DNA of 17,620 nt from Methanobacteriota archaeon. Its GTDB lineage: Archaea > Thermoplasmatota > Poseidoniia > Poseidoniales > Poseidoniaceae. Every line of letters begins with the position of its first letter. Position 1 is the first letter of the stretch. Positions 6,163 through 15,796 of this stretch are shown piece by piece. The translations under genes and the position numbers were made by a program. The stretch lies in contig PBUZ01000051.1 in the NCBI GenBank assembly GCA_002728035.1, forward strand, positions 37,154 through 54,773, in the 5' to 3' direction. The notes beneath the pieces are model-generated. The model made no database searches. It saw only the letters and a list, made by a program, of their open reading frames with translations, and was not told where the DNA came from.

Positions 6163-7704
6163 ATGTGTGGCATTCTCGGAATCGTCGGTCGTCAGGGTCT
6201 TCATGTGAATCAGCTGCTCTATGATGGCCTCACCGTCCTCCAGCACCGTGGTCAAGACGCCGCAGGCATTCTTACCGATGCAGAGGGTAATTTTCGTCTT
6301 CGAAAGTCAAACGGATTGGTGGCTGATGTTTTTTTCAAGCGGCACATGATGCGCCTAGAGGGCAACGTTGGCATTGGCCATGTACGCTACCCAACCGCAG
6401 GGTCCTCTTCACGGGCAGAGGCTCAACCGTTCTATGTCAACTCCCCTTATGGCATTGCCCTTGCTCACAACGGCAACTTGACCAATGCAGAAGAGTTGGC
6501 CTTGTATCTTCGAGATGAATGCATGCGCCACATCAACACCACCAGTGATTCTGAGTTGCTCCTGAATGTGCTCGCAGTTGAACTGAACCAACGCTCGAGG
6601 AGCCTCCGTATCGAGGGCAATCCTCACATCAACATCGAGACCATCTTCGGTGCGATTGGCGCCATGAATGAACGCGTTCGAGGAGGTTACGCCTGTGTCT
6701 CCGTGATCGCAGGTTACGGGCTGCTCGCTTTCCGTGACCCATACGGGATTCGCCCTCTTGTTTATGGGAAGCGTGAGACGGAAGGGTCAACCGAATACAT
6801 CGTGGCCAGTGAATCCGTAGCGATTACTGCTCTTGGCTTTGAAGTGGTTCGCGATGTTGCTCCTGGCGAAGCGGTCTTCATCAGTTCCTCTGGACACCTT
6901 TTCTCCCGCCAGTGCTCCCCTCAAATCAGTTATTCACCCTGTATCTTCGAACATGTCTACTTTGCAAGGCCAGACTCCGTTATCGACGGAATGTCGGTCT
7001 ACCAATCTCGTCTGAACCAAGGTCAGCGATTGGCGGAACGGCTGCTTGAGGAGTGGCCTGACCATGATATCGATGTCGTCATACCGATCCCAGATTCTGG
7101 GCGTATTGCAGCCTTGCAAATGGCAAAAGCGCTGAACCTTCCTTACCGAGAGGGCTTTGTGAAAAACCGATATGTTGGGCGTACCTTCATCATGCCCGGT
7201 CAAGCCCTTCGAGAGAAATCAGTACGCAGAAAACTCAATGCTATCGAACACGAATTCGCTGGGAAGAACGTCTTGCTCGTTGACGATTCCATCGTTCGCG
7301 GCACCACCAGCGCACAAATCATCGAAATGGCGCGTGATGTGGGTGCAGCAAAGGTGTATTTTGCCTCCGCAGCGCCCCCGGTCCGCCACCCGAACGTCTA
7401 CGGGATCGACATGCCAGCCGTGAACGAGTTTATCGCCAACGGGCGGACCATCGATGAAATCAATGCCACGATTGGAAGCGACCGCCTCTTCTATCAAACG
7501 CTCGAGGATTTGATTGAAGTCACCCTTCAACCAACATCAACCGTGAATGCGTTTGATTCAAGTTGCTTCGACGGCGTTTACATCACCGGCGACATTGATG
7601 AGGCCTATCTCCAACGCCTGCACGACAAGCGTAACGATGCTGCAAAAAGCGTAGCCGACCCAGAAGATTCCGGTGTCGATTTGCACAACGACGAACAAAA
7701 TTGA
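6163..7704 (+). CDS. purF: Amidophosphoribosyltransferase (first step of de novo purine synthesis), E. coli type
   Basis: PurF makes 5-phosphoribosylamine from PRPP and glutamine in the cytoplasm. The 513-aa protein starts MCGILGIVG, so Cys2 becomes the glutaminase nucleophile after Met removal and there is no propeptide. [25 protein letters not shown] and AHNGNLTN mark the Ntn glutaminase domain. [14 protein letters not shown] (about residues 370-383) is the PRPP loop of the phosphoribosyltransferase domain. The iron-sulfur cysteines of Bacillus-type PurF are mostly absent: HPNVYG replaces HPCFYG and the C-terminal CxxC is missing. The C-terminus with [11 protein letters not shown] and the overall length resemble E. 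coli PurF (505 aa), suggesting acquisition from bacteria. GAGGCGA precedes the ATG. The stop overlaps the next frame by 4 nt. Confidence 0.96.
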
Positions 7705-9380
7705 GCAATGAATCAATTCGTGGGAGTTCTTTTGAACATCCCCCTTCACCATGGCTCATGGTCTTGACACGAACGGTTTCCCCCCTCGTGCGGCCATCCA
7801 ACAAAGTATCCCATCTCGCTTTGGACAACGAAGGGGTGCTGTTGGCTTGGAATGAGGGGCGTCATGAGGTGTTTATCGGTCGAATCGAGTCGAACCAAGT
7901 TCGCATGGAGGCCTCTGTTCAGCATCCACATTCCATAACAAGCCTCCATTTCCATCGGGACTCATTGATCGTGGGTGATGAACTTGAAGGATTCACCGTC
8001 TATTCTACTGCTGGCGTGTTGAAGCAGACCGTCGAGGTGGACGGGGGCGTCCAGTCCATCGCTTCTCTGGGGTCTCGCTTGGCATTCCTCTCCGGTATGG
8101 GCGAGGTCCATTTGATCGACATTGAAGGGGAGATGAGCGTTAACCTGTCCGAACTCCATGGCTGCCATGATGTGGTTCATTTCGCCGTGCACAGTCAGAA
8201 ATTGGCCGTTGCAACTCAAGATGGGCGCGTCTTCGTGATGGATGATGACAAAGGCCCTTGGAGCAGGCCACCCCGCGGGACCATGGGTGAGCGAATAACG
8301 GGTCTCGGATTTACCCAACAGGGTTCGTTTTTCCTTTCCAGAGAAGGTCATGCTTTGGTGGCCGGTGAAGAAGAGGCCATTGAGTTTGAGTTGTGGCGGG
8401 ATGGCGAATTAATCGTCCGCTTAGAACAACGTATGCGTTTACTTACATCCAACCCTGCTGCGCAGGGAGCCGTGCTAGGATTCGATGATGGCTCCGTCTA
8501 TTCACTTGACGAGCAGGGTGAACTCACCTTGGTGATGGAAACAAAGCATCCTGTCTTTGCTTGCCTGCAGGTCAACGACAGCATTGTGGCAAGCTCTTGG
8601 TTTTACGTTCACGGCAAGACGAAGGATATGCTTTGGAAGGTCGAGCACCAAGGCATGCCCACGTGTCTTGCTGGCAACGAAACTTCAGGGTCGGTGATTT
8701 TTGCAGGTGATGACCAAAACGACTACACTGCTCCAGAACCCATCGGCTTCGTTGACCTGAACGAATCCACATACGAATGCGATGAAGCCGAACTTTCCCT
8801 GTGGTTTTCTGTTGAATCTACCCCGCCTTCTCTGAGCGCTGAAGAACTCTACGCCGATACCGATGACCTCTTGATGCACCTCACCCAAGACGAACAAGAC
8901 GCCTACACGAACACGCCTTCTGCCGATTCAAGCGATGTGTTGTTGGAAGCCATGGGCGATGTGGCTGATGACGTTCACGATGCGACCTCAGCGTTTGATG
9001 AAGACAGCATGACCGAGGAGTTGAACAAAATTGAGCATCTCTCCGTTGAAGAAACGAGTGATCTGATGGACGCTCTTTCGGCCACCGTCGACCATGTGTT
9101 CAAGCCACAAGCCGTTGCAGGCGAGGCTCAAGACCACCTTGCGGACGCGGACGGTACTTGCGTTGTCTTGTTGGATGGTCGTGGCACTGAGGATCCTCAC
9201 AACCATATTTCTTCATGGTCTTGGCACAATGAACGAGGTGAGGAAGTCGCTGCAGCACCTCAAGTCAAGGTTCGTCTTCCAATCGGTAAGCATGTCTTTG
9301 AATTGAGGGTCGTCGATCGGGACGGTTCGTGGACCACAGATCGGGTCGAAATACTGGTGCGCGATGGCTCAACCTCATGA
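7701..9380 (+). CDS. Cytoplasmic beta-propeller-like protein with C-terminal PKD-like domain, unknown function
   Basis: This is 559 aa from a TTG at 7701 that overlaps the purF stop (TTGA); an ATG at 7758, 19 codons in, is an alternative, and neither has a clear ribosome site. Residues about 35-370 form repeated four-strand units of the WD40/PQQ kind (for example [54 protein letters not shown]). Residues about 380-470 are strongly acidic and probably flexible. Residues about 484-556 look PKD-like: [21 protein letters not shown], then [19 protein letters not shown]. No signal peptide or membrane span is seen, which is unusual because PKD domains are mostly extracellular. Position after purF suggests co-transcription, but I see no purine-related motif. 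Possibly a scaffold or interaction protein. Confidence 0.72.
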
Positions 9381-11841: not shown

Positions 11842-11948
11842 GGCTGTACGCTCCACTTCTGCAATGAACGACCTGCAAGCAATTCATGAACCTTGCCACT
11901 TCGCCCAATGGGGGAATGTTGAGGCGGACGATACCTCGGTATGCGCGG

Positions 11949-11958
11949 TTAATATTAA
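11949..11958 (+). promoter_or_regulatory. Palindromic TATA-like box before the MCM-like gene
   Basis: TTAATATTAA is a perfect 10-bp palindrome, 28-37 nt upstream of the ATG at 11986, in otherwise GC-richer sequence. It fits a TATA box for the MCM-like gene, with GGGGAG (11974-11979) as ribosome site in a very short leader. Being palindromic it could also direct transcription leftward toward etfB, about 107 nt away. Confidence 0.45.
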
Positions 11959-11985
11959 GAACCGTCCCGATAGGGGAGAAACTCC

Positions 11986-12834
11986 ATGTCGCCACCGAAA
12001 AAAGTAGATGTCAATCCGAAGGAGCAAACGATCTTGCGAGAATGGCGTGAACTCGTTGAGGAGCATTACCTCGACGACATCAAGCACTTGAAAGGCCATC
12101 CAGACATTGTTTGGGGATTTGAGGTCAGTCACGCACACATCGACGAAAAAGAAACGCTACGTTTGGAGTTTCACATCAATCCAACACGGATGCTCAAATT
12201 GGGCACCCGAATCATGCGCGAGCAATTCGAGGCACAAGGTGTACAGATGCGTCCCGTGATTCGAATCATCGAACTTCCCGAACATTATCTCCGACGCCTT
12301 GACACCCTGCGCATGCGAGACCGTAACCGTGTGGTGTCCATCGATGTGAAAATCACCAATGTCTCACAGGCCTACGGTTGGTTGAAGATGGCTGTGTACG
12401 AATGCAAGCGCTGTTCGACTCAGACCCATATCGACCAGCGCCGTGCAAGGGAACGGGAGAGTCCAGGATTCTGTCAGCCCTGTTTCGATGATTTGCTTGA
12501 AGCATCGGAGAAGGGAGAAACATCGCCTCGTGACCTTCTCCCCCCAGTCTTCAAGATGTTGACAGAGGAATGCAAGTACGAGGATGTTCAAGACCTACAA
12601 ATGTGCCAAGTTACCTACAACAGCGACCACCACGTGCTCAACACTTCAACCCGACATCAGATCCTCGGGACGGTGAACGATGACCTGGTTGGTGAGGTGT
12701 TGACCTCGACCTATGCCCGTGTCAACGGCATCGTGCGGGTGCAACCCATTCCTGAGCGAACCTTTGCCAAGGACACGCGACGTTTGTTGTCCATCGACGT
12801 CCTGAGCGTGGAAATGTTGCCCCTTGAGGATTGA
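11986..12834 (+). CDS. Stand-alone MCM N-terminal-domain-like protein (no AAA+ helicase domain)
   Basis: This 282-aa protein resembles only the N-terminal half of the archaeal/eukaryotic MCM replicative helicase. Residues 1-105 are mostly charged helices and strands, like MCM subdomain A. Residues 102-140 (LRRLDTLRMRDRNRVVSIDVKITNVSQAYG, then MAVYECKRC) match the OB-fold entry IGKLVxVxGIVT. C140-x2-C143-x19-C163-x2-C166 is the MCM zinc ribbon. YEDVQDLQMCQ (198-208) corresponds to the FxDxQxIxIQE segment, and DDLVGEVLTSTYARVNGIVRV (232-252) to the strand before the helicase domain. The protein stops there: no Walker A, Walker B or arginine finger, and a convergent gene follows after 3 nt. Likely a DNA-binding paralogue of MCM; function is inferred. 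GGGGAG and a TATA-like palindrome precede the ATG. Confidence 0.75.
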   Translation: MSPPKKVDVNPKEQTILREWRELVEEHYLDDIKHLKGHPDIVWGFEVSHAHIDEKETLRLEFHINPTRMLKLGTRIMREQFEAQGVQMRPVIRIIELPEHYLRRLDTLRMRDRNRVVSIDVKITNVSQAYGWLKMAVYECKRCSTQTHIDQRRARERESPGFCQPCFDDLLEASEKGETSPRDLLPPVFKMLTEECKYEDVQDLQMCQVTYNSDHHVLNTSTRHQILGTVNDDLVGEVLTSTYARVNGIVRVQPIPERTFAKDTRRLLSIDVLSVEMLPLED

Positions 12835-14517: not shown

Positions 14518-14620
14518 GGAAGTGGCAGCGGCCACGGTCACATAAGGCTCACCGTTGGCGACCATCAAACGGAGCCGTTCAAGGGGGAGGTGTTTTCATG
14601 GAAAGGGGAGTGGACAAACC

Positions 14621-15796
14621 ATGGCAAGGAACCGTTGGGTTGCGTTTTCCCTCCTGTTGGTCCTCCTGCTACCGCTGGCCTCAGCAGATTTGGTTTCGAG
14701 AGTTCAGCTCACCGATGCAGGCGCACTTGCAGAAAGCGACCTCGGTGTTACCGTAGGTGCCGTTTCACCGGATGGCAAGGATGTGCTCATCGGTGGTATG
14801 AACGGCTACGCTCGTTTGCTTTCCGCTGAAGAAGCGGACAACCGTGAGATGGATGTCGAACTCGTAACTGGAAAGAACGCCACCGTACACGACATCGCAT
14901 GGCACCCCCGTGGAAACACAGCGCTCTTGATGGGTGAACAAGGATTGGCCATGAGGTACGATACCTACGACCACAGCGTGACCAACGTGAACGGTTCATT
15001 CAGCGTTCTCGGGCAAGCCCTCACGACCGTTGTTTGGCGACCTTCGGGTGACTTTGCCTATGTTGGCTCGGTCGATGGGAGCGTTTGGAAATTTGCAGAG
15101 CACACGGGCTTTGAACTGCTCGACAACCTCGGTTCCAGCGAAATCATGGACATTTCATGTCATCGAAACTACAACGTCTGTTTTGTGGCCTCAAAGGATG
15201 ATGGCATCGCAGTGATCGACGAGGGTCACGCCCTCTCTTGGATCGCTCAAACAGCAGCAGAAACTTGGGTTGGCATTGATTGTGCAGACCCCACCCTCAA
15301 CGAATGCGTTGGGTTCGCGAGCGGTTTGGTCAGCAAGGCCATTCGTATCAATACCATCGATGCGAGCAAGTCCGCCGCAGAAGAAGCGTTGCGACTGGAA
15401 CTTCCCTCAGGGGAGCATATCGGCGTCACGAGCGGGCACGACGGCACCAGTCTGGTTCATCTTGCACCGTTGGGACTCGTTCGCCACAAGCCACTTTCGG
15501 GTGAGGCGTTCACCGTGTTGGTGCCAGAGCACGCTGCTGAATGGGATGCAGTCATTGCAGGACGCAGCCTCGCCGTCGTTTGGGAAACGGGTTTGCATTC
15601 GGGATACATGATCACCGAGTTTGGAAACATCATCGCCTTTTCACCTGCAGTTGAAGAGGTTGAGATGAACATCATGGATGTGCTTGTCCTCGGGGCGGTG
15701 GCAATTTCCGTCCCGGGTGTTATCCTCGGTCTCATTTACATGAACAGCCCTTGGATGCAGCGAAAGTACAAGCAATGGCGGTTTGGGAAGAAATGA
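14621..15796 (+). CDS. Exported beta-propeller protein with C-terminal membrane anchor
   Basis: The 391-aa protein starts with a signal peptide: MARNR, a leucine-rich core (about residues 6-20), then LASADL with cleavage likely after ASA. The body (about 25-345) consists of repeated WD40-like blades (VTVGAVSPDGKDVLIGGMNG, VHDIAWHPRGNTALLMGEQG, LTTVVWRPSGDFAYVGSVDG). A membrane span at about residues 352-375 (VLVLGAVAISVPGVILGLIY) is followed by a basic tail ending KQWRFGKK. This is type I topology: propeller outside, short basic tail inside. Ligand unknown; perhaps a surface binding or sensor protein. The frame opens 22 codons earlier, but the ATG at 14621 gives the signal peptide its proper start and has GGGGAGTGG just upstream. 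The nearest A/T-rich element, CATAAGG, is about 75 nt upstream. Confidence 0.85.
   Translation: MARNRWVAFSLLLVLLLPLASADLVSRVQLTDAGALAESDLGVTVGAVSPDGKDVLIGGMNGYARLLSAEEADNREMDVELVTGKNATVHDIAWHPRGNTALLMGEQGLAMRYDTYDHSVTNVNGSFSVLGQALTTVVWRPSGDFAYVGSVDGSVWKFAEHTGFELLDNLGSSEIMDISCHRNYNVCFVASKDDGIAVIDEGHALSWIAQTAAETWVGIDCADPTLNECVGFASGLVSKAIRINTIDASKSAAEEALRLELPSGEHIGVTSGHDGTSLVHLAPLGLVRHKPLSGEAFTVLVPEHAAEWDAVIAGRSLAVVWETGLHSGYMITEFGNIIAFSPAVEEVEMNIMDVLVLGAVAISVPGVILGLIYMNSPWMQRKYKQWRFGKK

Follow-up and report, generated by a model that had tools for sequence, protein, structure and literature searches.

The locus described here raises the question of what an MCM N-terminal domain does when it is encoded without its helicase motor. 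The stretch analysed (the window) comprises 17,620 nucleotides of contig PBUZ01000051.1 (assembly GCA_002728035.1, positions 37,154 to 54,773) from a Methanobacteriota archaeon of the Poseidoniaceae. At 11986..12834 on the forward strand, it carries the coding sequence of a 282-aa protein (P0001), hereafter SA, the stand-alone MCM N-domain protein, whose relatives were found in protein and profile searches. In a structure model aligned to MCM N-terminal structures (MCM-N), residues 11-278 adopt the MCM N-terminal fold with its three-subdomain architecture of subdomain A, zinc ribbon, and OB fold. The equivalent of subdomain A spans about residues 11-88 (12016..12249, + strand) and is mostly helical according to the model secondary structure and the MCM-N alignment, while the identity to the archaeal MCM-N chains 1LTL, 4POF/5IY0, 2VL6, and 4ME3 amounts to 16-20%. 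No AAA+ domain with Walker motifs was found within the SA protein or in the 87 SA loci that were read (a set including the duplicate L045), and the frames of these loci extend beyond the domain by no more than 25 residues. We regard SA, with very little doubt, as a motorless paralogue of the MCM N-domain; together with its relatives, it forms a family of MCM N-domains without a motor that is conserved and under selection.

A preliminary description of the window had proposed such a domain without a motor. Its observation was confirmed, whereas its interpretation was only partly supported: the protein is real and conserved, and the genome also encodes a full-length MCM (719 aa). Two findings that the description had named as counter-evidence were not seen, namely a mismatch of the predicted structure with the MCM subdomains and, in the 87 loci, a frame continuing into an AAA+ domain. 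Of the 61 relatives returned by the protein search, 54 had a length of 282-289 aa, and the profile search returned 212, of which the 120 listed measured 275-319 aa. The uniform length of the relatives and the loci without AAA+ continuation led us to reject an origin of SA by truncation or frameshift, in line with the earlier statement that the protein is not a simple truncation. Searched individually, 38 of 48 aligned members matched MCM_OB, and the other 10 did not at E 0.01. Several relatives carry the JGI annotation 'DNA replicative helicase MCM subunit'. In the open-licence full-text literature, no paper was found to describe an MCM N-domain that stands alone, as judged from titles and abstract beginnings of the matches listed and with most subscription papers outside the collection, which makes novelty in print likely but not proven.

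Residue conservation was counted over 141 distinct sequences of 144 rows (58 database proteins and 86 loci), from which the interrupted copy L129 and the duplicate L045 had been dropped and in which some database rows and loci represent the same species. Positions were mapped by sequence alignments and by residues published in PMC3970758 and PMC4627082 (partial texts). The zinc ribbon cysteines Cys140, Cys143, Cys163, and Cys166 (12403..12483, +), already recognized in the preliminary description, were present in 141/141 sequences. Tyr198 (12577..12579, +), the putative counterpart of the MCM inter-subunit interface aromatic (F179 of Pyrococcus, Pf, or the Mcm4 Chaos3 position; PMC4627082, partial text), was Tyr in 140/141, the other row having an X; the probable F179/R186 mapping follows from a seven-residue spacing and from Sulfolobus (Sso) positions named in the partial texts. 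The N-terminal beta-turn (residues 253-268; 12742..12789, +) aligned as a basic segment with the signature RxFxKDTRRxL, in which Arg258 was found in 139 sequences, Lys/Arg262 in 133, Thr264 in all 141, Arg265 in 139, and Arg266 in 140.

Other MCM features were not retained. The MSSB arginines that bind single-stranded DNA (ssDNA) are R124 and R186 in Pf (PMC3970758, partial text), and a basic residue (Arg/Lys) occupied the putative corresponding SA positions in just 4 and 10 sequences out of 141, respectively, which weakens the earlier proposal of a single-strand binding platform. Position 125 was occupied by D (55), E (21), H (19), S (18), N (8), G (7), P (5), Arg (4), or others (4), and position 205 by S (67), E (26), N (17), Q (9), Arg (8), H (5), D (3), Lys (2), or others (4). 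These arginines are not universal in MCM either, since the full-length MCM of the same genome (L036) keeps only the first site, as Lys, and has Glu at the other, whereas the motif of Pyrococcus consists of two arginines; the second site is therefore weak evidence. Residues 206-224 (12601..12657, +) align where MCM has its allosteric communication loop, and few blocks of the family vary as much as 211-220 (2.75 bits). Private to SA are Arg111, Arg113, Gly131 with Trp/Tyr132, Arg155, and Arg157. The first two lie in the segment RMRDR (residues 109-113; 12310..12324, +), whose Arg109, Arg111, and Arg113 occur in 141/141 sequences and which reads RADDI in L036. Between the zinc cysteine pairs lies the basic segment QRRARERESP (residues 151-160), and the net charge between these pairs was positive in 16/17 SA proteins and zero in 1/17, compared with 29 MCMs of which 25 were negative, three positive, and one zero. 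The SA family separates ring-forming and duplex-gripping features, which are kept, from ssDNA-binding and motor-coupling features, which are lost.

Selection on SA was compared with that on two adjoining genes, a tyrosyl/tryptophanyl-tRNA synthetase family gene (TyrRS) and an ETF beta-type gene (ETF-beta), in 20 loci of genus g1. The median ratio of non-synonymous to synonymous change (dN/dS) was 0.045 for SA (19 of 190 pairs with 0.02<dS<2), one SA pair reaching 0.33; TyrRS had a median of 0.050 over 37 pairs and ETF-beta one of 0.063 over 105 pairs. Over longer distances, SA changed faster, its median non-synonymous difference being 0.311, with TyrRS at 0.155 and ETF-beta at 0.119. A tree was built from 46 N-domains (17 chosen SA and 29 MCM; a 30th MCM-like row, L041, was dropped as it had no SA-profile match), and in it SA formed one clade opposite all MCMs (100/99), a placement read with a long-branch warning and without a resolved root. 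Paths between the same genera were several times longer for SA than for MCM, and g9 was outermost both in the SA part and in the MCM part of f1, the family covered by the genome searches, which we read as Ca. Poseidoniaceae (Marine Group II). This topology fits vertical descent of SA with later losses. A viral origin was rejected, as SA profile and protein searches of viral sets gave no confirmed relative: the profile yielded no confirmed SA relative in viral contigs (5 stretches matched a pattern), and the window protein had no match among phages. Relatives of L036 were encoded in 74 viral contigs (L169-L242); no SA-like protein was found in these loci, where the best SA-profile score was 26.6 bits (49 matches in 1084 frames), and 29 cellular MCMs scored 38.8-84.9 bits with the same profile.

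By hand count, SA occurs in 106 of 170 f1 genomes (114 with a match minus 8 matching only via the full MCM), namely in g1 (30/30), g5 (46/62), g6 (20/24), g7 (7/9), g8 (1/1), and g9 (2/2); it was not found in g2 (5 genomes), g3 (27), g4 (2), g10 (6), or g11 (2). With many f1 assemblies incomplete, little weight falls on any one absence, and the carriers include partial copies (such as those in G156, G143, G064, G069, G083, G095, and G115); three of the 30 g1 copies are partial or split. A protein of Candidatus Poseidonia alphae (P0043) is 99.3% identical to the copy L027 of G133, which belongs to the window's own genus. NCBI assigns this species to Ca. Poseidoniaceae, class Ca. Poseidoniia, which is the basis of our reading of f1. 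Outside f1, the class search showed no match above 53 bits among 169 genomes, the rows listed sitting in frames of at least 500 aa, and in a phylum draw of 389 genomes SA rows scored 163.5 bits or more, with the next row at 84.9 among the matches listed. Four shorter frames noticed outside f1 (G448, G463, G469, and G380) all open off a contig end, and three contain a Walker A motif. A scan of the genome_contigs collection found nothing, but as it searched with short, exactly matched patterns from a single protein, it carries little weight. Among the carriers, G100 has two different SA genes (L120 and L121) and a listed contamination of 6%, so it may be a mixed assembly. The copy of G139 (C13:35640-36490) is split between two frames, and that of G107 (L129) has an internal stop, each through sequencing error or decay.

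The preliminary description had also suggested that SA might replace MCM subunits, a suggestion weakened by the distribution of the motor-bearing protein. By hand count, an MCM match was present in 97/106 SA carriers; MCM was not found in 9/106 carriers and in 12/64 non-carriers, and since carriers lack it no more often than non-carriers, there is no sign that SA replaces MCM. A PF00493 recheck of eight of the nine carriers without a detected MCM, all incomplete assemblies (74-90%), gave no match, while the control carriers G035 and G132 were positive. The one-contig genome G035 encodes one SA and one separate full MCM. L036 carries the motor (PF00493, 303 bits) and shares only 27% identity with SA over residues 17-163. 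The possibility that a motor half is encoded separately elsewhere was rejected. PF00493 had five matches in the genome: L036, one of 34 bits that exceeded the cut-off and lay at C10 in a frame of 367 aa, presumably a MoxR-type ATPase, and three below the cut-off. Matches in 14/14 control genomes indicate that PF00493 cross-matches other AAA+ proteins. G130 encodes, beside its normal MCM and SA, a second full-length MCM-like protein of 725 aa (L041:934-3111), which the SA profile did not match and which may derive from a mobile element or a virus.

In the window, SA is flanked by the divergent ETF-beta gene (PF01012; 11104..11856, - strand) and by the convergent TyrRS gene (PF00579; 12838..13983, -), the latter being the unrelated convergent gene reported earlier. 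SA lies antisense between these two co-directional genes in g1, g5, g6, g7, and g8, and in g9 it is nearby, on the far side of an acyl-CoA dehydrogenase gene. Around SA are genes for an acyl-CoA dehydrogenase, beta-propeller-like proteins, and a metallo-beta-lactamase-superfamily protein, and several loci have a PurF-like gene. Sixteen of the 64 non-carriers were queried for TyrRS, 13 matched, and 11 stretches were read, none of which contained an SA match. In eight of these 11 (three g5, three g3, and two g4), ETF-beta and TyrRS were directly adjacent with nothing between them, and in three (g10, g11, and g2) the gene order differed; the empty sites show that SA is cleanly present or absent at this place. 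Elsewhere in the window, a 552-aa protein (19-1677) matches the PD-(D/E)XK nuclease superfamily (PF12705, E 1.1e-9), and two beta-propeller-like proteins (7701-9380 and 14555-15796) share about 26-53% identity outside g1, diverging faster than the adjoining enzyme genes.

A promoter-like element, GGTTAATATTAAGAACCGTC (11947..11966, +), was recognized by upstream comparison at a distance of 20-39 bp from the ATG. In 76/85 loci, an A/T-rich part and, after it, CCGTC or a similar sequence lie about 25 bp upstream of the ATG, a count made without L045, L050, and L118 and dependent on the chosen start codon. We take the A/T-rich part to resemble an archaeal BRE/TATA box. The element is kept across genera even though the SA proteins share only about 30% identity. 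It supports a promoter of SA's own, in agreement with the preliminary description. The long g1 pattern had one match each in 22/29 genomes of the genus, 16 of the 22 upstream of SA (control 0), while a shorter pattern occurred 56 times in seven genomes (control 26), only twice at SA, and had 7 one-mismatch matches in the window versus 4.5 expected. In view of these counts, only a promoter-like element is claimed, and a private SA regulatory motif was set aside.

What, then, might the protein do? With ring and duplex features kept and ssDNA and motor-coupling features lost, the simplest reading is that SA acts on duplex DNA as a ring, or part of one, that has no motor. SA would assemble via its own N-tier interface into a small ring or ring segment, grip duplex DNA with the basic beta-turn, and perhaps bind the replicative MCM at its N-terminal face through the basic zinc face of SA, where it could limit or tune MCM loading or activation. 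We assign this mechanism as a whole, with docking as a possibility, a probability of about 35%. Contact with MCM is plausible by kinship. The loss of the allosteric loop and of the arginines that bind ssDNA makes it unlikely that SA supports an AAA+ ring as its N-tier or offers a platform for ssDNA. Rather doubtful is the more specific idea of a collar on duplex DNA that caps the MCM N-face as a head-to-head non-helicase partner, a licensing brake or anchor. The partial text of PMC4627082 reports that the isolated Pyrococcus N-domain forms hexamers, that F179A and zinc-deletion mutants are monomeric and a beta-turn mutant pentameric, that these mutants bind ssDNA very weakly or not at all, and that the beta-turn is a likely contact for double-stranded DNA.

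Several observations weigh against the motorless ring. The isolated Pf domain is a mixture of monomer and hexamer with a Kd of 60 uM (PMC4627082, partial text). Pf P130 is replaced by the invariant Gly131 and the TPIF segment by TRRL, so an SA ring may differ or not form. Charge complementarity between SA and MCM is suggestive of docking but is contradicted in g9, where MCM (+2) and SA (+6) are both positive. The SA neighbourhood has no replication genes, the MCM promoter region lacked CCGTC/CCGCC in 7/7 genomes examined, nine carriers are without a detected MCM, and the absence of carriers from g2, g3, g4, g10, and g11 implies that SA is dispensable there. The ring, the DNA grip, and the docking are predictions.

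A role independent of MCM is nearly as likely. SA could be a nucleic-acid-binding protein (a clamp, or a factor in transcription or repair) whose contact with MCM has been lost, a possible explanation to which the invariant Arg111, Arg113, Arg155, and Arg157, lacking in L036, the neighbourhood without replication genes, and the fast divergence all lend support, although the three-subdomain architecture and the ring-interface aromatic have been kept. The same fold and aromatic, and the presence of MCM in 97/106 carriers, would suit a poison or regulatory subunit that enters mixed rings through the common N-tier interface and lowers helicase activity by its AAA+ gap. We consider this unlikely, given the distance of SA from L036 with differing interface strand residues, the loss of the allosteric loop, and the SA branches, which far exceed those of MCM when the same genera are compared and over which matched interfaces would be hard to keep.

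The patchy absence with empty sites and the fast long-term divergence could also point to an antiviral decoy, a host N-ring that blocks a virus-encoded MCM such as that of Aoguangviridae, a virus of marine archaea (PMC10768690, partial text). This seems improbable for a gene that has no PADLOC match (0 families at E 0.1), sits at a fixed place beside housekeeping genes, occurs in all 30 g1 genomes (three as partial or split copies), and is under strong purifying selection between close species. We give almost no credence to a decaying MCM fragment or an assembly artefact: the interrupted copy of G107 and the split copy of G139 would fit it, but the dN/dS of 0.045, the length of 282-289 aa in 54/61 database relatives, the same locus in five genera, and the one-contig genome with both SA and a full MCM speak against it.

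SA can be set beside several known systems. L036 resembles SA in its homologous N-tier, with MCM_OB in both, but differs in its motor and in the Lys and Glu of its MSSB sites. The virus-encoded archaeal MCM (PHROG 10371) matches SA at E 4.5e-11, although its profile is full length (683). Additional MCM homologues exist in Methanococcales and Thermococcus (PMC3984812, PMC3307487), with no motorless one described in the partial texts, whereas SA is without an AAA+ domain. The archaeal MCM N-terminal structures (1LTL, 4POF/5IY0, 2VL6, and 4ME3) share with SA the fold, the C4 zinc ribbon, the OB fold, the beta-turn, and the interface aromatic; SA differs in being a natural gene rather than a construct, in its private Arg positions, and in not keeping the MSSB positions and the allosteric loop. 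An N-tier supplied in trans to an AAA+ core can raise the processivity of the motor half, and the coupling is reported to run through the allosteric loop (PMC4619765, partial text), which SA does not conserve. Related genomes with and without SA make the solo capacity of the N-tier directly testable: laboratories have cut off the MCM N-tier to learn what it does alone, and evolution did likewise and kept the product under selection.
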